A stretch of 38,945 nt of DNA from Anaerolineae bacterium (GTDB taxonomy: Bacteria > Chloroflexota > Anaerolineae > Anaerolineales > Villigracilaceae): positions 1 through 38,945 of the forward strand of contig JABGQV010000081.1 in NCBI GenBank assembly GCA_018648655.1, written 5' to 3'. The translations under genes were made by a program, and so were the position numbers. Positions within the stretch are counted from its first letter, which is position 1. The number at the start of each line of letters is the position of its first letter. The notes beneath the pieces were generated by a model. It saw nothing but the letters and a program-made list of their open reading frames with translations. It made no database searches and was not told the origin of the DNA. Positions 25,845-38,565 of the stretch are shown here, one piece after another.

Positions 25845-27284
25845 CTATTCAGGGATAATTTTCCAGCCGGGGAGGGCGCGTAGTTTCCAGATAAAGGTAT
25901 CGTGGAGCATGCGTTTGAGCCATGCGCCACTGAGACCCATTTCCATATGGGTGGTGAAGAGGTCGCGTCCGCCTTCGTTGGGGTAGCGTCTCATATCGGG
26001 TACCACAGGATGAACAACGATCGTGGCGGCACTTCCATCCCACAAAGAGTTACCCATAGAAGCGATACAAGCGGCGACCATCTCGGACATGCGCTCGGAG
26101 TGAGTCATACGTCCATCTTTGATCAAGTCGATGATATTGAGTGCAACGACACGTCCGATGATGCCAGAGACCATGCCCGTGCGTGGAGGGGCGGCTGTGA
26201 TAGGTGTTCCGTTGGGGGTTTTGTGGGGGCGCGAGATAGGTCCGGGAGGTGCAAAGGCGATGCCAGCCGCAAAGATATTCGGGTAGGTGGGATTTTGATA
26301 TTGGGAAGGCCAAGCATCGGGATTGCGTTCTAGAGTGTCGTAATCTAGGTCGTAAATGCCATCAACAATAACGAAGCCACCTGCGTTGACCACTTTACTA
26401 GAAATATCAGAGCCATCTTTGCCAATATAGTCTATAGGTTGTCCGCTAAATTTCGGGATTAGCATAGCGAAATCGTAATCGGTTTCGCCTTCTTCACCTT
26501 CGTAATTTTCCCAATAGATTTTTTCTGCATCTACGCTTTTTACAGCAGTTTGCACCTGAGATTTGATACCTGCATCTTTGAAAACAGCAGAAATAAATTC
26601 TTCGCTGGTGGTGAGTTTACCTTTATATTTTGCGAGAACGCCACGTACGCCAAAATCACCTAAAGCAGTTTCATTTGAAAGCCATAGAAGTTCAGCTTTA
26701 TCACGGACGCCTTTTTTAATTAAATCTTTATGGACATTAGTAATAAATTCAAACGCCGCACCTTGACAGGTGGATGTTCCATGTCCTGTCCCGATAACCA
26801 TTTTGACTTTTTCACCTTTTTTCATGCGTTCAACATAGTCAAGATATTTATCGCGGGTTTCGGTAACGTGGGGGAGCGAGCAGATGGAATAAGTATTACC
26901 GCCTTGATCAGGGCCCAAGCCAGGCGTTGCATCAAAGGCTAATTTTGGGCCTGTTGCGACGAGCAAATAATCGTATTCTACACGCGTAGAATCGCCATTG
27001 GCTTTTTCAACTTCTACAAATTGTTGACCTTCATCGGGATATACTTTTGTGGCTTTTCCATGAATAAAATAGACATTTTTTCGTTTATAAACAGGACCTA
27101 GCTTGAAGGTTGTTCTTTCGGGCTTCATTTGCCCCACACTAACCCAAATCCAAGAGGGGATATAAGCAAAAGAATCATGGCGGTTGATGACAGTTACCGT
27201 ATGTTTTTTGCCCAGTTTATCTCCTAAATAGAGAGCTGCTGTATGACCAGCGAAACCTGCCCCTATTACTACAACTTTTGCCAT
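25845..27284 (-). CDS. Sulfide:quinone oxidoreductase-like flavoprotein
   Basis: A 479-residue FAD protein of the pyridine nucleotide-disulfide oxidoreductase family, closest in wording to sulfide:quinone oxidoreductases. The FAD-binding start VVVIGAGFAGHTAALYL is at residues 4-20, YDYLLVATGP near 104, and NIFAAGIAFAPPG near 335 is the second dinucleotide-fold motif. Cys135 (YSICSLP) and Cys173 (TSTCQGAAFE) match the region of the first two SQR cysteines. I see no cysteine between 180 and about 400, where the third redox-active one would be expected. It is 32 bases after the cytochrome b-ferredoxin fusion in the same unit. Sulfide oxidation feeding quinone is plausible; another thiol or NAD(P)H substrate is possible. 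Confidence 0.78.
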   Translation of the reverse strand: MAKVVVIGAGFAGHTAALYLGDKLGKKHTVTVINRHDSFAYIPSWIWVSVGQMKPERTTFKLGPVYKRKNVYFIHGKATKVYPDEGQQFVEVEKANGDSTRVEYDYLLVATGPKLAFDATPGLGPDQGGNTYSICSLPHVTETRDKYLDYVERMKKGEKVKMVIGTGHGTSTCQGAAFEFITNVHKDLIKKGVRDKAELLWLSNETALGDFGVRGVLAKYKGKLTTSEEFISAVFKDAGIKSQVQTAVKSVDAEKIYWENYEGEEGETDYDFAMLIPKFSGQPIDYIGKDGSDISSKVVNAGGFVIVDGIYDLDYDTLERNPDAWPSQYQNPTYPNIFAAGIAFAPPGPISRPHKTPNGTPITAAPPRTGMVSGIIGRVVALNIIDLIKDGRMTHSERMSEMVAACIASMGNSLWDGSAATIVVHPVVPDMRRYPNEGGRDLFTTHMEMGLSGAWLKRMLHDTFIWKLRALPGWKIIPE

Positions 27285-27316: not shown

Positions 27317-29299
27317 TTACTCTATCAATCCTGGAGCAACTAGCGTGATTAGATGAATATCTCTATCGATTAAAGTGAGTTCTTTTTTTGCTAAAGTCCA
27401 ACTTTCTTTTTCTGAAAGAACTTCTATTTCAAGTGCATAGTCATCGGGTGAGAGCATTACTTCACCAAATAGTGTCTCTATACTTGTATAAGAGAAATCG
27501 CTTTTCTTATAGCTTTTTTCTATTAGAGCTTCGCCATCTACGAGTAGCTTTATGGTTATTTCTTCGTTGGCATCAAGGGATGCAATTTGAGGGGCTAGCG
27601 CATGTTCTAGATCGTGTGAAACCAACTGAATTTTAGCTTGTGTTTCGGGGTAAGGCGTATAAGTTTGATTAGTGAATAAAATTTGCACAACCAAGAGTAA
27701 TATCAATAATCCGAAAACTGGAAGATAGTTTTTCCAATTTAGCTCAGCCACGTCTTTCTTTGTCTTCTTTTCAACAGCATCTTTGAAGAGGTTGGGCGGT
27801 TGCCAATCGAAATAAATTGGGGCATCTTTGAAGGCTGATCTAAGCAGAGGCTTGCGCTCGCGCGTTAATCTTTCTTCTGTCCAGATATTTCCTTTTCGCT
27901 GGGCACAATCTTCGGGCGGGCATCCGATCATTTGCACTTCAGATGCGCCCGCTTCGTAAGTTTTGCTCATTAAACTGGGATTTGCTGCACCCACGCAGGG
28001 TAGTGGAATGGTGATAATTTTCTGGGATGGTGAACTTGCTGAGACCTCGAGATTTGTTTTTATATTTTGAGAGATATGCCGCTCACAAGCAAAAACAACC
28101 TTGACCTCATCTTGGGGAGCGTTTTCTTTTGTTTCTTCTAAGAGAAGCTTAGTTGCTTCTTTTACGGCCTCTGCGTTTAATTCGCCGACTGTGATGGCAT
28201 CATATTCGCAAGAGCCTACGCAAATACCACAAGAAACGCAGAGTTCGGAGTGCGAAATAGCAAGAAGTTTAGAGCCTTTACCTTCTCTTTCGACCATTTC
28301 TAGGGCATTATAGGGGCAATCTATGGCACAGAGCTTACAGCCTATACAGGCATCGTCTGTTATTTTAACGGGTTCAAGTTTTTGGTCGCGTGTGATCCAA
28401 GGAATTGCCAAGAGGAAGGCTACCAAGATTAGGATGCCGCCCCAAAGTAAATTAGCAGCACGCCCGCTTGGTTCCAATTCCATAGGAAAATAAAAGAGGA
28501 AGAAGGGGTCTAGTTCGATAGTATCGGGGAGAAATTTGAAAGAGGCTTGGGGGAGCATATCTGCGGGAAAAAATGCAGAGGCAAGAATAATGACGGTGGC
28601 GGTGCTAATCATCCACATTCTTGGGGGTAAAAGTTTGGCTTTATTAAGGCGAAGAATATGCCACCAAAAGAAGAGACCAATTACACCAGAAATGAGAATA
28701 TGTACCGCAAGTAGCCAAAACATGACTGTCCAGGAGCCATCGTTTTGGTTAACCTTTATAAGGTTGAGGGCAAAATCATTACCACTATTCCCAAAATAGC
28801 GATTAAGGAAGTTTACGAATGTGTCGTTGATAACTTGGGCGCGTTGGTCCCAGATCATCCAGTAGCCAGTGATGCCATCGAGCCAAAGGAAGACTGCCAT
28901 GCCAATGCCCGTAACCCATGCGAGCCAGCGTGCACCATGAAAGCGATTGGTGAAAAATGTGCGGTAGGCATGAAGCAATGAGATAATAACCGCCGAGCCA
29001 GATGCGTAGCGATGCACAGAACGGACAGTGTTGGCAATAAACTGGCTATCCATTTTTGTAACGGCGCGGTATGAGCCAGTAAAGCCAAATTGGTAAAAGA
29101 GGGTGACGTATACGCCAGTGATGGCTACAATGAGCCAAAGGTAGACGGCGAGGGTGTCGGTATGGTAGAAGATATTTAATTGCAGAGTTTTACCAAGTTT
29201 GTTGAAAAACTGCTCTATAAGAAGAGCGAGCTTTTCTAGTTTTTGTAGCAGTTTTGGAGTTTTTCTTGACCAAGGGAATTGTTGGGATAATTTCAACAT
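27317..29299 (-). CDS. Diheme cytochrome b / 2x[4Fe-4S] ferredoxin / MvhD-like fusion protein
   Basis: A 660-residue membrane redox protein with an uncommon module order. Residues about 40-225 are a cytochrome b6-like four-helix core; histidine pairs His96/His110 and His200/His214 fit two b hemes. Two more hydrophobic helices follow (about 229-245 and 284-301). Residues 318-328 (CIGCKLCAIDC) and 354-364 (CVSCGICVGSC) are two [4Fe-4S] sites. Residues about 398-480 resemble the MvhD/hydrogenase delta subunit, with Cys405, Cys435, Cys460 and Cys465 as likely [2Fe-2S] ligands. A final helix (about 526-543) leads to an extracytoplasmic beta-rich tail. MvhD links hydrogenase to heterodisulfide reductase in methanogens. 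Here the fusion may pass electrons between a soluble donor and quinone. It is flanked by terminators and co-transcribed with the SQR-like gene. Confidence 0.85.
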   Translation of the reverse strand: MLKLSQQFPWSRKTPKLLQKLEKLALLIEQFFNKLGKTLQLNIFYHTDTLAVYLWLIVAITGVYVTLFYQFGFTGSYRAVTKMDSQFIANTVRSVHRYASGSAVIISLLHAYRTFFTNRFHGARWLAWVTGIGMAVFLWLDGITGYWMIWDQRAQVINDTFVNFLNRYFGNSGNDFALNLIKVNQNDGSWTVMFWLLAVHILISGVIGLFFWWHILRLNKAKLLPPRMWMISTATVIILASAFFPADMLPQASFKFLPDTIELDPFFLFYFPMELEPSGRAANLLWGGILILVAFLLAIPWITRDQKLEPVKITDDACIGCKLCAIDCPYNALEMVEREGKGSKLLAISHSELCVSCGICVGSCEYDAITVGELNAEAVKEATKLLLEETKENAPQDEVKVVFACERHISQNIKTNLEVSASSPSQKIITIPLPCVGAANPSLMSKTYEAGASEVQMIGCPPEDCAQRKGNIWTEERLTRERKPLLRSAFKDAPIYFDWQPPNLFKDAVEKKTKKDVAELNWKNYLPVFGLLILLLVVQILFTNQTYTPYPETQAKIQLVSHDLEHALAPQIASLDANEEITIKLLVDGEALIEKSYKKSDFSYTSIETLFGEVMLSPDDYALEIEVLSEKESWTLAKKELTLIDRDIHLITLVAPGLIE

Positions 29300-29442: not shown

Positions 29443-30594
29443 TTACTCTTGCCAAGTTCGTAAGAAAGCGATGATATTGGCTAATTGCTCTTCAGTGAGT
29501 ATGCCTTTATAGCCTTGCATTGCTGTTCCTTCTCGTCCGGCTTGGGTGAAGGCAAATACATCGGCATTAGTGCTTTCTGTAATGAAATCATTTGGTTGCA
29601 TTCGTTTGCCTACGCCACCTTGACCTTCGGAGCCATGACAACCAGCACAAGTCTCTTTATAGAGGGCTTCGCCAGCTTCTGCATCACCAGTAGGCCATGC
29701 GTCACGAAGGTCTGCCATTGTAGCTGCATCACCGTTGCCAGCTGCTATATCGGCACTTATGCTCTCAAAATCTGTAAGGAGGGGGCCAAAGGCAATTGGT
29801 TTAGCACGGTTCATGTAGAAAAGGGCATTTTCGCCATCACCTTGCTCAAGGGAGAAGAGAGCAGAATCTAGCATTTGGGCAACAGTTGCTTCAGGAGCAA
29901 CATTTTCGCCTGCCCGCCATGCGTCCATAAGAGCCAATAAGTCTTGAACTTGATTATCTGAGAGTGTTTCTCCCCAGATGGGCATTCCTGATGCAGGAAG
30001 ACCGTTGACAATAATTTGTTCGTACCAGTCATTATCATTTTTCTTCAAGCTATCAATATCATTGATAGCGAGAATTGTATTGCCATCTTCATCTTCTACA
30101 CCAAGACCATTTTCACCATGACAGGTGAAGCAAGTGGTTGAAAAGAGTGATGCGCCACGTGATGCGCTTGGGGTGAATTCGCCCACAATGACTTCGGGGG
30201 CATTTTCTTCAAAGGCACGGATGAAATCAACGATGGCATGAATATCTTCATCGGTGAGTGCGCCGCCATAGGCTTGGCCCCATGCAGGCATGGTGGTATT
30301 AGGGCGACCTGTTTGGATGGAGGCAAATAAGACACCATCGCTGGCTTCTTCGAGCAAGATTTTATCGTTGAGGGCGGGGCCTACAATCCCTTCACCGCGT
30401 GTACCATGACAAGAAGTGCAGTTTTCAACGAATAAGGCACGTCCGTACCCTAGACTCTCTTTGTGATGTTCGGCTGTGCTTTCTTCCATACGTATTGCTT
30501 CTGTGGCAAACATATAAGAGAAAGAAGCCAAGAGAACGAGAGTAATAATCAAGCCAATGAGAAGCTGTTTCGTGTAATTTTCGTTTTTCAGCAT
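29443..30594 (-). CDS. Membrane-anchored triheme cytochrome c
   Basis: A 383-residue electron carrier with an N-terminal membrane anchor (about residues 10-30) and three cytochrome c domains. Heme sites are CTSCH (59-63), CFTCH (155-159) and CAGCH (316-320). Likely axial methionines lie in TTMPAW (Met102), SGMPIW (Met204) and TAMQGY (Met359). A heme-free insert of about 80 residues (about 235-300) separates the second and third domains. Its place directly after the Rieske gene (9-base gap) makes it the natural cytochrome c subunit of the Rieske/cytochrome b complex, passing electrons to the oxidase. Confidence 0.92.
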   Translation of the reverse strand: MLKNENYTKQLLIGLIITLVLLASFSYMFATEAIRMEESTAEHHKESLGYGRALFVENCTSCHGTRGEGIVGPALNDKILLEEASDGVLFASIQTGRPNTTMPAWGQAYGGALTDEDIHAIVDFIRAFEENAPEVIVGEFTPSASRGASLFSTTCFTCHGENGLGVEDEDGNTILAINDIDSLKKNDNDWYEQIIVNGLPASGMPIWGETLSDNQVQDLLALMDAWRAGENVAPEATVAQMLDSALFSLEQGDGENALFYMNRAKPIAFGPLLTDFESISADIAAGNGDAATMADLRDAWPTGDAEAGEALYKETCAGCHGSEGQGGVGKRMQPNDFITESTNADVFAFTQAGREGTAMQGYKGILTEEQLANIIAFLRTWQE

Positions 30595-30603
30595 GGGTTC
30601 TCC

Positions 30604-31095
30604 TTAAGCCTGTGTAGTTTGAGAAGGATCAAAGGCTTTGCGCTCAAATGATTCTTCAGTATCAACGAAAACTTCGCCTTCTTGAATGAAGACGCGGAAA
30701 TAATCCATTGGGCGGGGGGCCGGACCACCAGCTACTTCACCTAATTTGTCAAATAAAGAGCCATGACAGGGGCAATGGAATTGGTCTTCGTCTTCCTCCC
30801 AAGGAACACTGCATCCTAAGTGGGTACAGCGTTGCCAGAGAGCGAGAAAGCTACCATCATCTAGGCGAGAAAGGAAGAAACGACCTTCTTTGACAAGGGT
30901 AATGCTTCCAGGAGGAAATTCTTCTAAGGTGCCAGCTTTTATGATGCCACCAAAGCCACCATCATTGATAGGTTGGATAAACCAACCCAGTGCGCCCAAG
31001 GTTTCGCCTATGAGGGCTAGGCCAGCACCTAGCCAAGCTAGGCTGAGGAATTGGCTGCGGTCAATTTTTTCTTTCTTTTTCTTTTCTTTAGTCAT
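30604..31095 (-). CDS. Rieske [2Fe-2S] protein of the cytochrome b complex
   Basis: High-potential iron-sulfur subunit that takes electrons from quinol at the Qo site. With the start at 31095 (163 residues) the motifs are CTHLGC at 90-95 and CPCHGS at 108-113, supplying the two cysteine and two histidine cluster ligands and the disulfide. A charged N-terminus and one membrane helix (about 18-38) anchor it. I choose the ATG at 31095 rather than the one two codons upstream because AAGGAG then lies seven bases away instead of two. It is 109 bases after the cytochrome b C-terminal gene, in the same direction. Confidence 0.92.
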
Positions 31096-31204
31096 TTGCA
31101 TTCTCCTTTAGATAGTTCCAAGTAAATAACTTTTTTGTCATTTTCTTATAAGGACTTTTGGTTATTTTTTTAATCTAAGTATTGGAACTGCCTTGTTCAC
31201 CGGT

Positions 31205-31972
31205 TTATAGGCCGTCTAGAGGGTTATATCCATTAGGCATAGCCCAAGGCAGATATAACTCAAAGCCAGGTCCACGGAATAAGAAACCTGTTAATGTGAG
31301 TACTACGCCGGTGAAAAACAGGACGGTGAATAAAACCAACATTACCTCTCTAGCAGTTGGTTTTTCTTTCTTTGTACGCATAAGCACCAATACTGGCAAA
31401 ACCACTAAGAAGGTCATTACACTACCAGGAATGACAGATTGGGTGATGAGATTTGGTAATACATCGCGCAACAACTCACGGGGAGGAAACGCGTTATCAA
31501 GTAGAACGAATCCAGTCATCGAGATGACGGTATAGAGAGCTGTCCAGCCTACAATTTTTTTTCCATATGCGGTGCTAAACCAAACCCCTGCATTCTCTTT
31601 ACTATAGTCAATAAAAGGAATCGAGATTAGGAAGGCTACCGCAACACCAGGGAGAATAATCCCAGCCAAGGTAGGGTGCATATGCTCTAACATTTCTTGT
31701 AAGCCCATGAAGTACCAAGGAGCTTTGGCAGGATCTGTTGTAATCAAAGGATTAGCTAGCTCTTCGAGTGGGGCATCTTTTAGTAGGGAAAAGAGAATCA
31801 AGAATAGCGTAGAGCCTAAGGCTAGAGCTAATTCTAATATCGCAACAATAGGGAATGCGAAAATTGTGTTTTCTGGTCCCCTATCTTTCATTGTCGTGGG
31901 TGATTTGACAATTTCAACTAGGTTATAAGTTTTTCTGGAGCCTCTGGAGAAACTTCTGTCTTTAGTTGTCAT
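31205..31972 (-). CDS. Cytochrome b C-terminal part (subunit IV-like)
   Basis: The second half of a split cytochrome b, like subunit IV of the b6f complex or the C-terminal domain of bc1 cytochrome b, which helps form the quinol site. The protein (255 residues from the ATG at 31972) has the motif [18 protein letters not shown], where APWY replaces the PEWY of canonical complexes, and several membrane helices, probably more than the three of subunit IV. GGAGG lies 9 bases ahead of this ATG, and the gene overlaps the end of the cytochrome b N-terminal gene by 11 bases, favouring it over the start six codons upstream. Confidence 0.9.
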
Positions 31973-32726
31973 TTTCTGCCTCCATTTCATCTGGGATTTC
32001 GTTTGCGGCTAGACCACCATCTTTGCGAACACGCCAAAGGTGGAAGGCGATGAGTATGAATAAGACAGCAGGAACGACCATAACGTGCAATCCGTAGAAG
32101 CGAGTTAGGGATGCCTGCCCCACTTCGGGGCCACCAAGCAAGATTTTTTGAATGGTCTTGCCCATTAATGGCTCGTAAGTCGCCACACTTGTCCCGACCG
32201 TGATTGCCCAGAAAGCCAGTTGATCCCAAGGAAGCAAATAGCCAGTGAAGCTACCAATGAAAGTAGCTAATAATAGGAAAACACCAATAATCCAGTTAAT
32301 TTCACGTGGGGGTTTATAAGCACCGGTATAAAAAACGCGTACCATATGCAAAATAGCGGTGAGTACCATTGCATGTGCGCCCCAACGGTGCATATTGCGG
32401 AGCAATTGCCCGAAAGGAACTTTGGTTTGCAGTTTCACGATGTCGAAATAGGCTAATTCTGTAGAAGGCACATAATAGAACATCAAGAAGATGCCAGTGA
32501 TAGAAAGAATGATGAACATCACGGTTGTGATGATGCCTAATCCCATCGAATATAAGGGTTTAATACTTTTCTTATTTACCTTTACAGGGTGTAGATGGAA
32601 AAATAGACTCTCCGTCATAATCAACGAACGGTCTAGGGGATTATTCGGTAAGCCATAACGGAAAGTTGCTTTCCATGGGCGGCTTGTAACGATTTTCTCC
32701 CATAAATTTGCTAATAAGTTTTTCAT
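31962..32726 (-). CDS. Cytochrome b N-terminal part (b6-like, diheme)
   Basis: Core quinol-oxidising subunit of the Rieske/cytochrome b complex, 254 residues, with four membrane helices. Heme-ligand pairs are His113/His127 (spacing 14) and His214/His229 (spacing 15). The second spacing of 15 is that of the b6f type rather than mitochondrial bc1 (14), and agrees with the split gene arrangement. The [17 protein letters not shown] stretch contributes to the quinol site. It starts 15 bases after the GltD-like gene stop, in one operon with it. Confidence 0.94.
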
Positions 32727-32741
32727 AGGGTCTCCAGCGGG

Positions 32742-34658
32742 CTAGTTTTTATATCCCAGTGTTTCTTCAAAGCGGAAGGATTCCATGGTGATGGCATCTG
32801 TTGGGCAACGTTCAGCACATAAAGCACAGCGAGTGCAGGCTTCATCATCTTTAAGCATCACCGACATTTTTGTATTGATTTCATGCTCTTTTGTTATCTC
32901 ATTCAAGGGAACACCTGTATGCTCCTCAATAACAGCATGAAGTGTTTCATCGCCAGAAATCTCATCGAGACTGACAATTTTCAAGCAATCCCAAGGGCAA
33001 ACATCTACACAACCATTGCATAAAATGCATAACTCACCATCAAAAATAGTATTGACGCTACATTCGAGACAGCGAATACTTTGTTCGACAGCTTGATCAG
33101 GGTCATAGCATAACTCAACTTGAGTATACCCAGTGCGTAGATTAGGGTCTAAGGATGGGGCTTTTTCACGTTGATATTTAAGCCAATTGTCGGGCATCAC
33201 GTGATCTTCAAGGTTTGTCCAATCAGACTTGACGGTGCTTTCGATTTCTTTGCTTTGAATATATTCATCAATAGACAATGCCGCGACATGTGCATCACGT
33301 ACAGCAGAAATAATCAAACTTGCACCATAAGCAACATCACCACCTGCAAAAACATCGGGAGCGGTGGTTTGTCCAGTTTCATTATCTGTTTTGAAAATGC
33401 CCCAAGGCTCAACAGTAATATCATCAGCACCTTCAACAAGGTGTAAATTAGATTGTTGTCCGATGGCAAAGATAATGGTGTCACATTCCCATTCTTTTTC
33501 GCTATTTTCAACAAATTTAGGGTTAAATTTCCCGTCTTCATCAAATACAGAAGCAACGTCTTTGGTTTCAAAACCAACCACTTTGCCATCTTTGCCAAGA
33601 ATACGTTTAGGTCCTGTGCTGGGGAACATCTCAATTTCTTCTTCCATTGCCTCTTCGAGTTCAAGGGGAGAGGCGGGTAACTCATCCCAGCTTTCGAGTG
33701 CCATTAGGGTTACTTTTCTTGCACCTAATTTTGCTCCATTTGCTGTGGCTTCTTCTAATGTTTCTTTGCGGTGTCCTGCGCGTAAGGCTGTTCGAGCGGC
33801 ATCCATGGCTACATCCCCACCACCGACAACGATAATGTTATCGCCGATATAGTCAATTTCCCGCTCCATGTTGAAGTCCATGAGCAAGTCCACTGCAAGG
33901 ATGATTCCTTCGTTTTCACGTCCCTCTAAGTGGCTTAAATCACGCCCATCCATTAAGCCTACGCCCAAGAAAACAGCATCATTTTCTTTGCGAATGTCGT
34001 TGAGCATAATATCTTTGCCAATGCGCGTATTATATTTAAAATCTACGCCCATATCGGCAATTTCTTGTATTTCGGCATCCATTTTTTTCCAATCTACACG
34101 GAAAGATGGAACGCCGTAACGAATCATGCCGCCAGCGTATGGACCAGCTTCATATATAGTGACTTCGTAGCCAAGAATGTTCAAATCGTGAGCAGCACTT
34201 AAACCAGCAGGACCTGCACCAATAACTGCTATTTTGCCACCTTTTCTGTCAGGATTGGATGCGAGTTTGGTTAAATTGGTGCGACTCCATCCAACATTGG
34301 ATGCATCTAAATCAAGCGCTGCATTCGGATCGAATATGACTTTTGACTTGGGTGCTGCTTCGGGACCATGTGCCATTGTGAGCACTTTTTTTAGTGGCCG
34401 GATAGCTACAGGTGCGTCTTCGTTGATATCCCCGCGTCTACAGGCGATTTCACAAGGTGCGCCACAAATTTGCCCACACATAGAAGAAAGCGGGTTTGGC
34501 TCACGAGAAATTTGATAACCTCGTTCCAGGTCACCTGCGGCCACAGCCATAATATATCCGCGTGCATCTGTTTGTACAGGGCAGGCTGCTTGGCATTTGA
34601 CCATTTCGCGGTAGGTATCCGTTGTTGGTACTTTTACCTTATATTGGTCTTTGCTCAT
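32742..34658 (-). CDS. GltD/NfnB-like FAD oxidoreductase with C-terminal ferredoxin sites
   Basis: A 638-residue soluble flavoprotein. N-terminal region: cysteines 22, 26, 61, 65, 69 and 73 in CQAACPV and CGQICGAPCEIAC, the iron-sulfur ligand set of glutamate synthase small subunit and NfnB. FAD fold: IGAGPAG near 146-152 and YEAGPYAGGMIRYG. NAD(P) fold: VVGGGDVAMDAAR near 276. C-terminal addition: CLEC (530-533), CILCNGCVDVC (544-554) and CTRCALCAERC (608-618), giving two further [4Fe-4S] sites. It lies directly ahead of the cytochrome b genes, so it may deliver NAD(P)H or ferredoxin electrons to the quinone complex. Similar flavoprotein genes beside Rieske/cytochrome b loci are reported in anammox bacteria (from memory). 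Glutamate synthase is unlikely: no gltB. Confidence 0.85.
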   Translation of the reverse strand: MSKDQYKVKVPTTDTYREMVKCQAACPVQTDARGYIMAVAAGDLERGYQISREPNPLSSMCGQICGAPCEIACRRGDINEDAPVAIRPLKKVLTMAHGPEAAPKSKVIFDPNAALDLDASNVGWSRTNLTKLASNPDRKGGKIAVIGAGPAGLSAAHDLNILGYEVTIYEAGPYAGGMIRYGVPSFRVDWKKMDAEIQEIADMGVDFKYNTRIGKDIMLNDIRKENDAVFLGVGLMDGRDLSHLEGRENEGIILAVDLLMDFNMEREIDYIGDNIIVVGGGDVAMDAARTALRAGHRKETLEEATANGAKLGARKVTLMALESWDELPASPLELEEAMEEEIEMFPSTGPKRILGKDGKVVGFETKDVASVFDEDGKFNPKFVENSEKEWECDTIIFAIGQQSNLHLVEGADDITVEPWGIFKTDNETGQTTAPDVFAGGDVAYGASLIISAVRDAHVAALSIDEYIQSKEIESTVKSDWTNLEDHVMPDNWLKYQREKAPSLDPNLRTGYTQVELCYDPDQAVEQSIRCLECSVNTIFDGELCILCNGCVDVCPWDCLKIVSLDEISGDETLHAVIEEHTGVPLNEITKEHEINTKMSVMLKDDEACTRCALCAERCPTDAITMESFRFEETLGYKN

Positions 34659-34739: not shown

Positions 34740-35141
34740 TTATTTTACAGTTACGAGATAAGCAAGAATATCAGCAATTTGTTCTTCGCTGAGATCATCG
34801 CCCCAAGATTGATACATGGAGCCAGCTTCAAAACCTTCTACCAAATAAGCATCAGGGTTGACGATAGATTCCATAATATATTCTTCTGCTGAAAGGCCAG
34901 GAACGCGACTTTCAGCGCGAGTGGCTGTGCCAGCGGTGAAGGGAGCATCGGTCTCATCGCCTTCGGAAGCATCCATATTATGGCAAGATGCACAACCTTC
35001 AGCTGATTTTGAGCCTAATGTTGCTTGATTATAAAGTTTTTCGCCGTTAGCGGCATCGGGGCCCTCAGAGGAGCCTCCACCACCACAAGCGGTGAGAACT
35101 AAAGCAAGTATTACAAGTGTGAATAAAACTGTTTTGCGCAT
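34740..35141 (-). CDS. Lipoprotein monoheme cytochrome c
   Basis: A 133-residue lipid-anchored cytochrome c. The signal peptide ends in LTAC with Cys19, followed by a glycine/serine-rich linker. The heme site CASCH is at 50-54 and the likely axial Met109 is in GSMYQSW. AAGGAG precedes the ATG. It lies between oxidase subunit I and the Rieske/cytochrome b operon and probably serves as the direct electron donor to the oxidase. It has its own terminator, and the 175-base gap upstream leaves room for its own promoter. Confidence 0.92.
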   Translation of the reverse strand: MRKTVLFTLVILALVLTACGGGGSSEGPDAANGEKLYNQATLGSKSAEGCASCHNMDASEGDETDAPFTAGTATRAESRVPGLSAEEYIMESIVNPDAYLVEGFEAGSMYQSWGDDLSEEQIADILAYLVTVK

Positions 35142-35316: not shown

Positions 35317-36948
35317 TTAGCCCCAAACTTGGAAGCCAGGTGAGAAAGCGGCTCCATCTGTAACGAGGTTGATAATCATTGGTGCATAAGCAATAATAAT
35401 TAAAGCAAAGACTGCAATTAGCCAAGGCTTCCAGTTGTTCAACCATGCGGGAACATCTTCTTCGTATAGGGTTTCTGCTACAGGAATTTCAACCACGACA
35501 TCTTTTTTGGAGAACCAAGCGGCGTGAATAACGACGTAGAAGAATAGTAATCCAGAGGTGAGGAGGATTGTGCCACCAATGCCGGTCATCATGCTAGCAA
35601 CTCGCCATTCGCCAGTGCCGTAATTTTCAATTGCTACACCAAGCATTGTGCGACGTGGTGCGCCGAGAAGGCCGATCCAGTGCATGCCACGAGAGAAGGT
35701 GAGCATACCGATGGCCCAAAGCCATGCTTGCCAGAGGGCAGCTTTACGAAGGATAGCTTTGCCTGTCAGGTGAGGAATGAGCCAGTACATGATGCCCATG
35801 AAGGAGAGGGTTGCGGCAGTTCCCACAGTAAGATGGAAATGACCAGGAACCCAAGCAGTATTATGGATAACAAGGTTGACGTTATAAGAAGCATTAATTA
35901 CACCACCAGCACCACCAAAGATGAAGATAATCATCGCGAGGTTTTGGGCTGTGTAAGAAGGATCGTTCCAGGGGAGGTTTTTGATCCAGCCCAAGAGCCC
36001 TTTACCGCCACGTGCTCGTCCACCGATTTCTAATGAAGCAGCTACATTGAAAGCTGTCAGAAGGCTGGGGAAGAATACTGCGTATGTTAAGACAGCGTGG
36101 AGATATTTCCAGCCAGCAGGAACACCAGGGTCAACATATTGGTGATGGAAACCAATCGGGGTTGAAAGCAAGAGGAAGAGCCAGAAAGCAAAGCGAGCCA
36201 TTGTGCCACTGAAAAGTTTGCCGCCAGCTTGCTTTGGCATCATTCCGTACCAGGAAATATAGGCAGGGAGTAACCAGAAATAAACCAGTGGGTGACCAGT
36301 AAACCAGAAGAGGGTGCGTGCTAATTGAACATCAATGCCAGGAACGAGACCTAAAGACCATGGAATTATGAGGAGGAGCATTTCAGCAGCAATACCTAAA
36401 GTACAGATTTGCCAAAGCGCCATGGTGATGACGGAAGCAAAGGCTTGGAAAGGGGCAGTTTCGCCAGGATTATCTTTGCGCCAATTGGCGAAGGTAATCA
36501 TCATGTTCCAGCCGCTCATCCAGCTGCCGACAACGAATAAGGTCATGCCTACGTAGAAATACCAAGGAGCCATCATTGGCGGGTACATGGTATATAAAAT
36601 GGAAGCAAGATTGAGCAAGAGCGGTACGGCTGCTAAGATTAAGCCAAAGACCATAGTGAAGAATCCAGCCCAGCTAAGTTTAGGGTAACGCATTGGACGT
36701 CCCAAGCTGGTGGCTGTGATATAGGTCAGGAAGCCGGTGATAAAGAAGGTAGTGAAAGCTAAGGCATTCAAAATACCATGCAAAGTTAAACCATGATAAT
36801 AAGATGCAATATATGGTTGCATAGCAGGGTAAGTGTTCCAGCCAGCATGTTCCCAAGCCTGTAATGGCCCAAAGAACGCACCAATAGATAAGCTGCTTAA
36901 GGCAAGGATGATATGCCAGCCAGCTAATTTCTTTTCGGTTTTGAACAT
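35317..36948 (-). CDS. ba3-type (B-family) cytochrome c oxidase subunit I
   Basis: Catalytic heme-copper subunit that reduces oxygen to water and pumps protons. The 543-residue protein has 12 or more membrane helices. Low-spin heme ligand His57 (TLHGILNALAF); CuB and crosslink motif GHPLVYFWLLPAY with His219 and Tyr223; His268-His269 in GFHHQYVDPG; heme ligands His370 and His372 in VPGHFHLTVG. The sequence HPLVYFW, and lack of the A-family GHPEVYIL wording, place it near Thermus ba3 (CbaA). B-family oxidases have high oxygen affinity and lack a separate subunit III, and none is present here. A GAGGA ribosome binding site precedes the ATG. Confidence 0.92.
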   Translation of the reverse strand: MFKTEKKLAGWHIILALSSLSIGAFFGPLQAWEHAGWNTYPAMQPYIASYYHGLTLHGILNALAFTTFFITGFLTYITATSLGRPMRYPKLSWAGFFTMVFGLILAAVPLLLNLASILYTMYPPMMAPWYFYVGMTLFVVGSWMSGWNMMITFANWRKDNPGETAPFQAFASVITMALWQICTLGIAAEMLLLIIPWSLGLVPGIDVQLARTLFWFTGHPLVYFWLLPAYISWYGMMPKQAGGKLFSGTMARFAFWLFLLLSTPIGFHHQYVDPGVPAGWKYLHAVLTYAVFFPSLLTAFNVAASLEIGGRARGGKGLLGWIKNLPWNDPSYTAQNLAMIIFIFGGAGGVINASYNVNLVIHNTAWVPGHFHLTVGTAATLSFMGIMYWLIPHLTGKAILRKAALWQAWLWAIGMLTFSRGMHWIGLLGAPRRTMLGVAIENYGTGEWRVASMMTGIGGTILLTSGLLFFYVVIHAAWFSKKDVVVEIPVAETLYEEDVPAWLNNWKPWLIAVFALIIIAYAPMIINLVTDGAAFSPGFQVWG

Positions 36949-36970: not shown

Positions 36971-37894
36971 TTAGATCAAAGTTTCGACATATATGAATAT
37001 TAGAGCTATTCCAAGATAGATATTTGAAACTTTAAAGACCTTGAAAGCCTGTTTTTGATCGGGATGGGTAATTAAGCGGATGGAATGTGATCCCATCCAT
37101 AGCGTGGCCACAGTTATTGGGATGAGATAAATCAGCCCAAGTTGTGGATGAAAAGCCAGTAAAAGTGCAAGGATAGAAGTTGCTCCCGTGTGAAGGGTGA
37201 TCCACCACGCTGTTGCTCGGTCGCTGACTACTGTGGGTAGCATGGGAATGCCCGCGCGAGAGTAATCGTCACGGTAGGCCATTGCTAAACTCCAAAAGTG
37301 AGTCGGAGTCCAAACAAAGATGAGCAAAGCCAAAGTAAGAGCACCAGGTTCTGCCCAATTACCTACAAGTGCGCTACCGCTTAAAACGGCACAACTTCCT
37401 GCTGCACCGCCAATAACGATATTTAGCAAAGTGCGAGGCTTTAACCAAACTGTGTAAATACCGATATAAATAGCGGCGCCTAAAGCTAAGAAAAATGCCA
37501 ATGCGAGATTATCAACATAGAGAGCTATGCCAACTGCGAGAGCAATTAATCCGCTTGCGATACCTAGAATTGCATGAGGGTTTGAGACAAGTCCAGCTGC
37601 TAGAGGGCGATTAAGCGTTCGTCGCATAAGAGCATCAGAAGAGCGTTCGAGATATTGATTTATTGCAGATGCGCCAGATGCCGAGAGAATGCCCGTTACT
37701 AGTAGCAAGCCTAAATTTGCGAGCGAAATCCTTCCTCCCGCAGCAAGAAATGCGCCTCCAAGAGATGAAAGTACCAGCAAGATAACAACACGCAACTTAA
37801 AGAGAACAGCGATAGAGCGCAAAGTATCTTTAAGAGTATCGGTGCTTAATTGAGGGCCGATTTTTACTTCAGAAGTGGTTTCTTGGCTATTCAT
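36971..37894 (-). CDS. ctaB: Heme O synthase (protoheme IX farnesyltransferase)
   Basis: A UbiA-family membrane prenyltransferase that attaches a farnesyl group to heme B for a- or o-type oxidases. The 307-residue protein has about eight to nine helices. The prenyl-diphosphate site reads NQYLERSSDALMRRTLNRP, with Glu in place of the first Asp of the common NxxxDxxxD form, and the second site is YRDDYSRAGIPMLP. A GGGAG ribosome binding site sits 11 bases ahead of the ATG, 15 bases after the subunit II stop, and 22 bases before subunit I, so it belongs to the oxidase operon. No heme A synthase is in view. Confidence 0.92.
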   Translation of the reverse strand: MNSQETTSEVKIGPQLSTDTLKDTLRSIAVLFKLRVVILLVLSSLGGAFLAAGGRISLANLGLLLVTGILSASGASAINQYLERSSDALMRRTLNRPLAAGLVSNPHAILGIASGLIALAVGIALYVDNLALAFFLALGAAIYIGIYTVWLKPRTLLNIVIGGAAGSCAVLSGSALVGNWAEPGALTLALLIFVWTPTHFWSLAMAYRDDYSRAGIPMLPTVVSDRATAWWITLHTGATSILALLLAFHPQLGLIYLIPITVATLWMGSHSIRLITHPDQKQAFKVFKVSNIYLGIALIFIYVETLI

Positions 37895-37909: not shown

Positions 37910-38428
37910 CTACTCTACGATTATAGTACCAAACATATTTTGGTGTCCTACACCGCAATATTCAGTACAAACATAGAAGTATGTGCCAGCTTCTTTAAAG
38001 GTATAGGTTAGGGTAGATTCTTGACCAGGTAAGACCATGAAGTTGATATTGGTATCAGGCGTTCTGCTACCATCAGCTCGGTCAGCACCAATCATCTTGA
38101 AGCCATGTTGTACATCTACGCTGGTGACATGGAAGGTAACTTTATCGCCAACAGTAAGACCAGTGACTTCATCAGGATAGAACTTCCAGGGGCTGGCTTC
38201 AGCACGAATATATAGCTCGTAATTGCCGGGTGAAAGTTCTTGCAAGCCAGGCTCTGAATAAGGACCTGATATAGCAGCAGTATTAGGATCGATTAACTGC
38301 GAAGGCGAAGGTACTTGGATGCCAAGCATAACACCAGCTACGGTAATTGCAGAAAAAAAGATAACTAAAACTACAATACCGATATAGATAAATTTCTTTT
38401 CATAGGGGTCTACATGCATACCTTTCAT
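37910..38428 (-). CDS. ba3-type cytochrome c oxidase subunit II (CuA)
   Basis: Electron-entry subunit with the binuclear CuA centre. With the ATG at 38428 (172 residues) there is one N-terminal membrane helix (about 13-35) and a periplasmic cupredoxin domain. CuA ligands are His108 (DVQHGF), Cys154, Glu156, Cys158, His162 and Met165 in VCTEYCGVGHQNM. The single helix and short length match the Thermus ba3 subunit II. The chosen ATG overlaps the stop codon of the preceding small gene (TGATG); a GTG one codon earlier and an ATG three codons later are alternatives. Confidence 0.93.
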   Translation of the reverse strand: MKGMHVDPYEKKFIYIGIVVLVIFFSAITVAGVMLGIQVPSPSQLIDPNTAAISGPYSEPGLQELSPGNYELYIRAEASPWKFYPDEVTGLTVGDKVTFHVTSVDVQHGFKMIGADRADGSRTPDTNINFMVLPGQESTLTYTFKEAGTYFYVCTEYCGVGHQNMFGTIIVE

Positions 38429-38565
38429 CACGATGTCATACCTCTCTCAAGCATGGTCATATAAACCCAGCTCCATAAAACAATAACGGTAACGATGAGT
38501 ATAAGCGCAATAGCCATTGCACCCTTTGGCTCAAATTCTTCCGTTGGTTTTTTATCTTCGCTCAT
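38428..38565 (-). CDS. ba3-type oxidase subunit IIa (small membrane subunit)
   Basis: A 45-residue single-helix protein beginning MSEDKKPTEEFEPKGAM, then a membrane helix (about 17-36) and LERGMTS. It resembles from memory the 34-residue subunit IIa of Thermus ba3, which has the same PKGA-helix-RG layout and supplies the helix missing from subunit II. A GGAGG ribosome binding site lies six bases before the ATG, and its TGA overlaps the subunit II ATG, so the two are coupled. Short genes of this kind are easily missed by automated gene finding. Confidence 0.85.
   Translation of the reverse strand: MSEDKKPTEEFEPKGAMAIALILIVTVIVLWSWVYMTMLERGMTS

Follow-up and report, generated by a model that had tools for sequence, protein, structure and literature searches.

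A cytochrome b-ferredoxin-FlpD fusion protein of Anaerolineae is genetically paired with heme-copper oxidases

Introduction

CcoG (FixG) is described as the cupric reductase of cbb3 oxidase assembly (PMC7558416), and Rieske/cytochrome b complexes of Kuenenia that include an NAD(P) oxidoreductase have been proposed to make NAD(P)H (PMC12954380). Among heme-copper oxidases (HCOs), the eNOR type is distinguished by a glutamine that replaces the cross-linked tyrosine of subunit I (PMC8756737). Here we analyze a 38,945-nucleotide stretch from an Anaerolineae bacterium (contig JABGQV010000081.1 of assembly GCA_018648655.1; hereafter the window), in which a single open reading frame (ORF; positions 27317-29299, minus strand) encodes a 660-residue protein that joins a cytochrome b core, two [4Fe-4S] motifs, an FlpD/MvhD-like domain, a further helix and an outer tail (hereafter the fusion protein). 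The original prediction, made from the DNA letters alone, read it as a membrane module that could exchange electrons between ferredoxin or a flavoprotein and quinone. We find that its family travels with enzymes that consume O2 or nitric oxide (NO), and that it probably either feeds them electrons or helps to build them. Among the titles and abstract openings listed by literature searches, none describes such a fusion beside an HCO; a PNAS paper of 2024 that deals with the diversity of NO reduction may show these operons. The sole annotated member here carries the mere name "cytochrome b N-terminal domain-containing protein".

Results

Architecture of the fusion protein

The one-chain fusion is real. 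The whole of it lies in one ORF in another metagenome-assembled genome (MAG; locus L003), with 68% identity over query residues 5-658, and 75 of the 87 loci collected for the family have an ORF of at least 640 residues, so an assembly error does not account for it. Resolution into two genes, which had been raised as a possibility, was seen neither in L003 nor in these 75 loci; the tail alone is encoded by its own gene, in the proteobacterial loci L006 and L165. The 75 homologues form the conservation set used throughout, and the other 12 have shorter ORFs because of contig ends, stop codons or a tail encoded apart, as in L006.

Each Pfam family suggested with the original prediction was matched: cytochrome b by PF13631 (E 1.1e-11) and PF00033 (E 2.4e-6), the 4Fe-4S motifs over residues 311-370 by PF12838 together with PF00037, and the FlpD/MvhD domain by PF02662. 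The heme histidine pairs H96/H110 and H200/H214, whose 14/14 spacing had already been remarked on, are kept in 75/75 homologues, as are the eight ferredoxin cysteines (318, 321, 324, 328, 354, 357, 360 and 364). The b6-like core stands as a cytochrome b with its heme ligands, but two of its helices had gone unnoticed. Aligned by hhalign, the membrane part of the homologues matches cytochrome b6 and subunit IV (11 loci, with the window's in first place) over six helices (probability 98.8, E 7.4e-17), which indicates that helices E and F are present ahead of the ferredoxin part (six helices, not four). Loop charges agree with the inferred sidedness. One polypeptide thereby carries a pair of hemes, two or three iron-sulfur clusters and an outer domain.

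PF02662 matched residues 401-508 at 41.6 bits (cut-off 22.3; E 1.5e-10) and, with E values allowed up to 1, 63 of the 77 C-terminal regions of homologues; with all four of Cys 405, 435, 460 and 465 in the window protein, the proposed MvhD-like four-cysteine domain is borne out. These cysteines act as one set, with all four in 63/75 homologues and none in 12/75, and their expected conservation accordingly holds in the window's lineage and fails for the whole family. The best NCBIfam stretch was positions 573-748 of HdrA2, its ferredoxin-MvhD end (E 5.9e-19), at a score of 67.7 bits that is far under the cut-off of 1100. A second FlpD gene in the window's own genome (G000:C125; L050:2750-3187) is stand-alone, encodes 145 residues and lies near an ArsR-like regulator.

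The further helix and extracytoplasmic tail are likewise upheld, by a hydropathy peak and a predicted beta-sandwich (Table 1). AlphaFold2 modeled residues 521-660 alone (five sequences) as a fairly confident beta-sandwich, with a predicted local distance difference test (pLDDT) score of 76.8. Foldseek with this model returned nothing at E 0.001 or better among solved structures. With VIA, the best match (Z 8.5) was the luminal domain of HGSNAT and generic sandwiches ranked below it; FixG structures were not among the 50 best matches listed, which has no weight as evidence either way.

Genetic pairing with heme-copper oxidases

With the window's own, 82 matches to a profile of 17 homologues reach E 9.2e-90 or better; they lie in 73/396 genomes of the Anaerolineae class, as counted by hand from the match list, and nine genomes hold two copies. 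At 1e-30 the search itself tallies 89 genomes, some of which match in the cytochrome b part or the C-terminal part alone. With the window protein as query, the matches listed at E 1e-60 or better across 301 genomes of the phylum are all of the same family/class. The phylum surveyed was Chloroflexota, outside which relatives were found in two Proteobacteria, a gammaproteobacterial Thiotrichaceae MAG (L006) and an alphaproteobacterial Defluviimonas plasmid (L165; WP_347309654.1), the latter being the sole hit at 1e-10 in a search of 72,556 plasmid records.

A survey of gene neighborhoods, which had been suggested along with the original prediction, was run on the 87 loci (near-identical L004, L005 and L007 all counted) with an in-house ORF caller and home-made profiles (E 1e-10, then 1e-8) in place of curated annotation, except for L165. 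The constant neighbor proved to be COX1, the gene for HCO subunit I, and not the Rieske module: COX1 was found in the fetched stretch of 72/87 loci, and in 73/87 once more sequence around L097 was added (L153). By our estimate, which was not computed, about 1% of random genes would lie within 8 kb of an HCO. In 11 of the 14 loci without COX1, the sequence available upstream is shorter than 6 kb. The 72 COX1 loci comprise 47 of Tyr type (O2-type), 23 of Gln type and two with COX1 fragments that lack the motif, so that the Gln motif (GHPAQQ or GHSSQQ, positions equated by motif) is seen in 23/70 loci with a readable motif. Judged by this motif, the partner HCO of the Gln lineage has the glutamine expected of eNOR, and these loci are called eNOR-type below; the window's own COX1 has the tyrosine.

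Recurrent layouts are SCO-SCO-COX2-COX1(GHPLVY)-cytochrome c-fusion gene, in which the fusion protein often bears the cytochrome c at its own C-terminus, and COX2-COX1(GHPAQQ)-DsbD_2-copper ATPase-fusion gene; the proteobacterial loci read COX2-COX1(GHSSQQ)-CtaB-SCO-fusion gene-tail-hemerythrin. The hemerythrin genes that extend these two eNOR-type runs lie at L006:12039-12425 and L165:14041-14445. At L043, the HCO genes and a multicopper-oxidase-like protein (cupredoxin plus Cu-oxidase domains), which we read as probably NirK-like, are divergent beside the fusion gene; an eNOR-NirK operon has been reported from Ardenticatena (PMC4653789).

Where both genes exceed 500 residues, COX1 and the fusion gene share a strand in 62/64 loci, and the nearest relative of the fusion protein has the same HCO type in 63/64. 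All seven testable two-copy genomes hold one copy per HCO type, the copies being 28-33% alike. Distances between fusion proteins correlate with those between COX1 proteins at 0.87 (Mantel; largest of 999 shuffles 0.11), and at 0.90 and 0.92 within the types. On an 81-row tree with 65 labeled rows, in which L004 represents its near-copies and rows with fewer than 250 letters in the part used were left out, HCO type changes once, against a shuffled mean of 18.6. Leaving aside L103, which like L117 sits on a long branch, the O2 set (51 rows) has a support of 99, as does the eNOR set of Chloroflexota (27 rows).

These results support the earlier interpretation in part. An electron-transfer module remains the natural reading, but the Rieske and flavoprotein neighbors named as partners are inconstant, with a GltD-like gene in 9/47 and a Rieske gene in 8/47 O2-type loci and neither in any of the 23 eNOR-type loci; L003, L086, L091 and L097, with no COX1 in the stretch, also have Rieske-module genes. 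The gene order in the window is COX2-CtaB-COX1-cytochrome c-GltD-like-b6-subunit IV-Rieske-triheme c-fusion gene-SQR-like, and the four oxidase genes that head the run had been overlooked.

Table 1. Parts of the fusion protein and neighboring genes in the window.
Feature	Coordinates	Strand	Evidence
Fusion protein: cytochrome b - 2x[4Fe-4S] - FlpD/MvhD - transmembrane helix - beta-sandwich tail	27317..29299	-	660 residues
Six-helix cytochrome b core, residues 30-305 (b6-like A-D, then subunit-IV-like E/F)	28385..29212	-	PF13631/PF00033 and hhalign
Two [4Fe-4S] motifs, residues 311-370	28190..28369	-	PF00037/PF12838; 8 Cys in 75/75
FlpD/MvhD-like domain, residues 401-508, Cys 405/435/460/465	27776..28099	-	PF02662 1.5e-10
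Further transmembrane helix, about residues 525-543	27671..27727	-	Hydropathy peak 2.44
Predicted extracytoplasmic beta-sandwich tail, residues 551-660	27320..27649	-	AlphaFold2 model; separate gene in L006, L165
HCO subunit II, CuA/cupredoxin type	37910..38431	-	PF00116 22.2 bits, cut-off 22
Heme O synthase CtaB	36971..37894	-	TIGR01473 240.5 bits, cut-off 210.3
HCO subunit I, GHPLVY (Tyr, O2-reductase type)	35317..36948	-	PF00115 1.6e-88 and motif
Single-heme cytochrome c, lipoprotein-like N-terminus by eye	34740..35141	-	Relative fused to C-terminus of 21/75 fusion protein homologues
GltD-like Fe-S flavoprotein, putative NAD(P) oxidoreductase	32742..34658	-	PF07992, PF14691, Fer4; PRK12771 405.8 bits, below cut-off 516
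Cytochrome b6, ExtP-like	31962..32726	-	272.7 bits, cut-off 290
Subunit-IV-like cytochrome b C-terminal protein, APWYF for PEWYF	31205..31990	-	
Rieske protein	30604..31101	-	PF00355 3e-12
Triheme cytochrome c	29443..30594	-	Three PF13442 stretches
SQR-like FAD protein	25845..27284	-	PF07992; beside the fusion gene in 9/47 O2-type loci too

The genes at 29443-34658 form a set of parts like that of the Kuenenia complexes. Another cytochrome b/Rieske/triheme c set is present elsewhere in the same genome (G000:C111; L051:8836-11816), where the cytochrome b is a single 459-residue ORF that matches both the b6 and the subunit IV of the window.

Discussion

A proposed role in electron supply

The fusion protein is very likely a dedicated functional partner of HCOs. 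Our leading account, held tentatively and short of even confidence, is that it serves as their dedicated electron-supply arm. A cytoplasmic low-potential carrier (ferredoxin, or a GltD-like or SQR-like flavoprotein) would reduce the FlpD/[4Fe-4S] part, from which electrons would pass to the n-side b heme, then to the p-side b heme, and exit outside; the tail would keep the chain beside the oxidase, and in O2-type loci a fused or adjoining cytochrome c would carry the electrons onward to CuA. We infer both donor and direction: at the potentials typical of these cofactors, the flow should go from the iron-sulfur arm through the hemes to the outside. A cytochrome c is fused at the C-terminus of 21/75 homologues (21/77 by Pfam), which amounts to one change on the tree, and a separate related cytochrome c occurs in 36/47 O2-type loci. 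Because this fusion suggests that electrons are delivered to CuA, the window having the related cytochrome c as a gene of its own beside COX1, we rank electron input first.

A number of observations weigh against this account or against the pairing on which it builds. None of the 23 eNOR-type loci has a cytochrome c gene between COX1 and the fusion gene, and a c-type ORF, by a weaker profile, is found anywhere in the stretch in 9 of them, six being small and on the opposite strand; the O2-type loci L099 and L101 have no CxxCH ORF of more than 90 residues. (Small opposite-strand cytochrome c genes near COX2 were seen by Pfam in L004 and L045, with similar ORFs by profile in L005, L007, L046 and L052; L006 has a cytochrome c gene downstream of the fusion gene.) A copper ATPase lies directly upstream of the fusion gene, on the same strand, in 17 of the 21 eNOR-type loci that have one. 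The 12 homologues without the FlpD cysteines are one eNOR-linked clade (11 tree rows, near-copy L005 being omitted; support 100). COX1 is missing from L041, L057 and L059 despite at least 7.8 kb of upstream sequence, shared species history accounts for part of the Mantel correlation (0.87), and the branch that separates the two HCO types has a Shimodaira-Hasegawa-like approximate likelihood ratio (SH-aLRT) support of just 42. A full-length AlphaFold2 model (six sequences; pLDDT 44, predicted template modeling score 0.24) was unusable, and no cofactor distances were read from it.

HCO clusters without the fusion gene count on the same side. In a test of need on 68 COX1 matches at E 1.2e-187 or better, at least 12 close relatives have no fusion gene nearby (L133-L143 and L152), ten of them in family f110. 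The class search at 1e-30 found none anywhere in 11 of those 12 genomes, and the twelfth (G514) holds an eNOR-type copy. At least two eNOR-type loci, L158 and L159, lack the gene as well. Several of the stretches examined reach no further than 2 to 4 kb beyond COX1; four further matches (G637:C379, G622:C360, G632 and G599) are outside the fetched set, and the stretch of L151 stops at COX1. Since HCOs can evidently manage without the fusion protein, we reject an obligate partnership.

In two of these clusters, L141 and L142, the slot of the fusion gene is occupied by a pyruvate phosphate dikinase gene. The O2-type COX2-COX1 cluster of L141 (f110; L141:687-6505) adjoins a HoxEFUYH-like row of [NiFe] hydrogenase genes (2Fe-2S thioredoxin-like, Nuo51, Fer2, Oxidored_q6 and NiFe large subunit). 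Nuo51 and NiFe large subunit genes, the two searched for there, also lie next to COX2-COX1 in L138 (f110; L138:7192-11927), and L142 and L143 have ORFs similar to the L141 row in size, the one property compared.

A possible role in assembly of the oxidase

A CcoG-like maturation reductase is possible, if somewhat doubtful: electrons from the cytoplasm would pass through the b hemes so that, during construction of the oxidase or NO reductase, Cu(I), SCO or the CuA cysteines stay reduced. Copper genes accompany both HCO types, with a P1B copper ATPase in 21, DsbD_2 in 21 and SCO in 1 of the 23 eNOR-type loci, and SCO in 28 and a copper ATPase in 1 of the 47 O2-type loci; SCO directly precedes the fusion gene in the proteobacterial order. 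The succession of transmembrane helices, two [4Fe-4S] motifs and a possibly immunoglobulin-like outer domain resembles CcoG (PMC7558416), and a heme-based periplasmic reductase that supports HCOs, CrpH, has been proposed (PMC13038864). These neighbors and this plan make assembly nearly as likely as electron input, and with the copper ATPase directly before the fusion gene and no cytochrome c between, assembly fits better in eNOR-type loci.

The CcoG outer domain itself, FixG_C (PF11614), was not among the matches of the window protein at E up to 1, nor among those listed (25 of 33 Pfam families, down to E 0.2) for the 77 C-terminal regions, and had no match in the window's own genome (G000). 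A strong match (2e-13 or better) occurs in just a few of the 396 class genomes, at least four (G480, G324, G321 and G128), which is a point in favor of a maturation role; the genomes matched at E 0.001, at least 120/396, have mostly immunoglobulin-like repeats in long ORFs (profile positions about 34-119). Further points count against a maturation role. No Cys or Met column of the tail reaches 45/75, and its one His column (58/75) has Tyr in the window; 19/47 O2-type loci, the window included, lack SCO, DsbD_2 and copper ATPase genes throughout the stretch; family f110 retains SCO without the fusion gene; and a general copper reductase would need neither a cytochrome c fused to it nor a separate copy for each HCO type.

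Quinone-linked and hydrogenase-linked alternatives

The earlier proposal overlaps partly with electron input and also with a quinone-coupled module, in which a p-side site would oxidize menaquinol (or reduce menaquinone) and exchange electrons with ferredoxin or NAD(P) through the iron-sulfur arm, the oxidase acting as high-potential sink. We consider such a module unlikely. The canonical Qo-region sequence is PEWYFLPFY, and the PEWY motif is not retained in the family, which has an Asp with variable neighbors instead: D264 (codon 28508-28510; 74/75) stands by motif at the Glu position, hhalign placing its column one off, and the ef loop of L006 reads LDWFYMPIY. Other residues that match the Qo region are D151 (75/75), Y146 (72/75) and P245 (75/75), and the retained p-side residues D151 and D264 would make quinone exchange possible. 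The window's neighbors resemble in their parts the proposed NAD(P)H-making complexes of Kuenenia (PMC12954380), but Rieske genes are as scarce as given above.

Less probable still is a Rieske-free quinol-bifurcating complex wired to the oxidase, which would oxidize menaquinol at the p-side site and send one electron via the tethered cytochrome c (or straight to CuA) to O2 or NO and the other via the b hemes into the [4Fe-4S]/FlpD arm, making reduced ferredoxin or NAD(P)H; if so, the oxidase would directly pay for low-potential reductant. An MvhD-type partnership with hydrogenase or heterodisulfide reductase, which the PF02662 match and the HdrA2-like ferredoxin-FlpD cassette would suit, is very improbable and was set aside: the FlpD cysteines are lost in 12/75 homologues that keep the remainder, and the window's own MAG, whose absences are weak evidence at 85% completeness, has no NiFe hydrogenase large subunit, in line with the original prediction's remark that the window shows no hydrogenase, and nothing over the HdrA2 cut-off (iron-sulfur, FlpD and nucleotide-binding fragments alone).

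Significance and comparison with known systems

A large family gains a constant partner, the heme-copper oxidase, and the O2 and NO reductases of Anaerolineae gain an unexpected neighboring path for electrons from the cytoplasm to the outside, which bears on the electron supply of these HCOs and on the maturation of the eNOR-type enzymes. Many Anaerolineae live largely by fermentation; electron input, if true, would let such bacteria use reduced ferredoxin or NAD(P)H to reduce O2 or NO.

Each of the closest described systems shares some parts with the fusion protein. MvhD and the ferredoxin-MvhD end of HdrA2 have the same succession of ferredoxin and four-cysteine FlpD, whereas here the cassette is linked to a membrane cytochrome b and neither hydrogenase nor Hdr was found in the genome. 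With cytochrome b6 plus subunit IV the fusion protein has in common the six helices of the alignment, both bis-His heme pairs, GYxxxWDQ and an acidic ef-loop residue; it differs in its replaced PEWY, its single chain, its n-side iron-sulfur domain and the usual lack of a Rieske gene. The Kuenenia complexes (PMC12954380) can be likened by parts list to the window's GltD-like, b6, subunit IV, Rieske and multiheme c genes, to which the fusion protein adds an extra cytochrome b with its own iron-sulfur arm, most of its loci having no adjoining Rieske gene. With CcoG/FixG, as described in PMC7558416, the fusion protein shares membrane helices, two [4Fe-4S] motifs, an outer domain of predicted sandwich fold and a gene within an HCO cluster (73/87 loci), joined in the eNOR lineage by a copper ATPase. 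Unlike CcoG/FixG, in which cbb3 is the partner, it has a two-heme cytochrome b core, an FlpD domain, at times a fused cytochrome c and no FixG_C that we could see, and it is paired with HCOs of the Tyr and Gln types, none of which we call cbb3.

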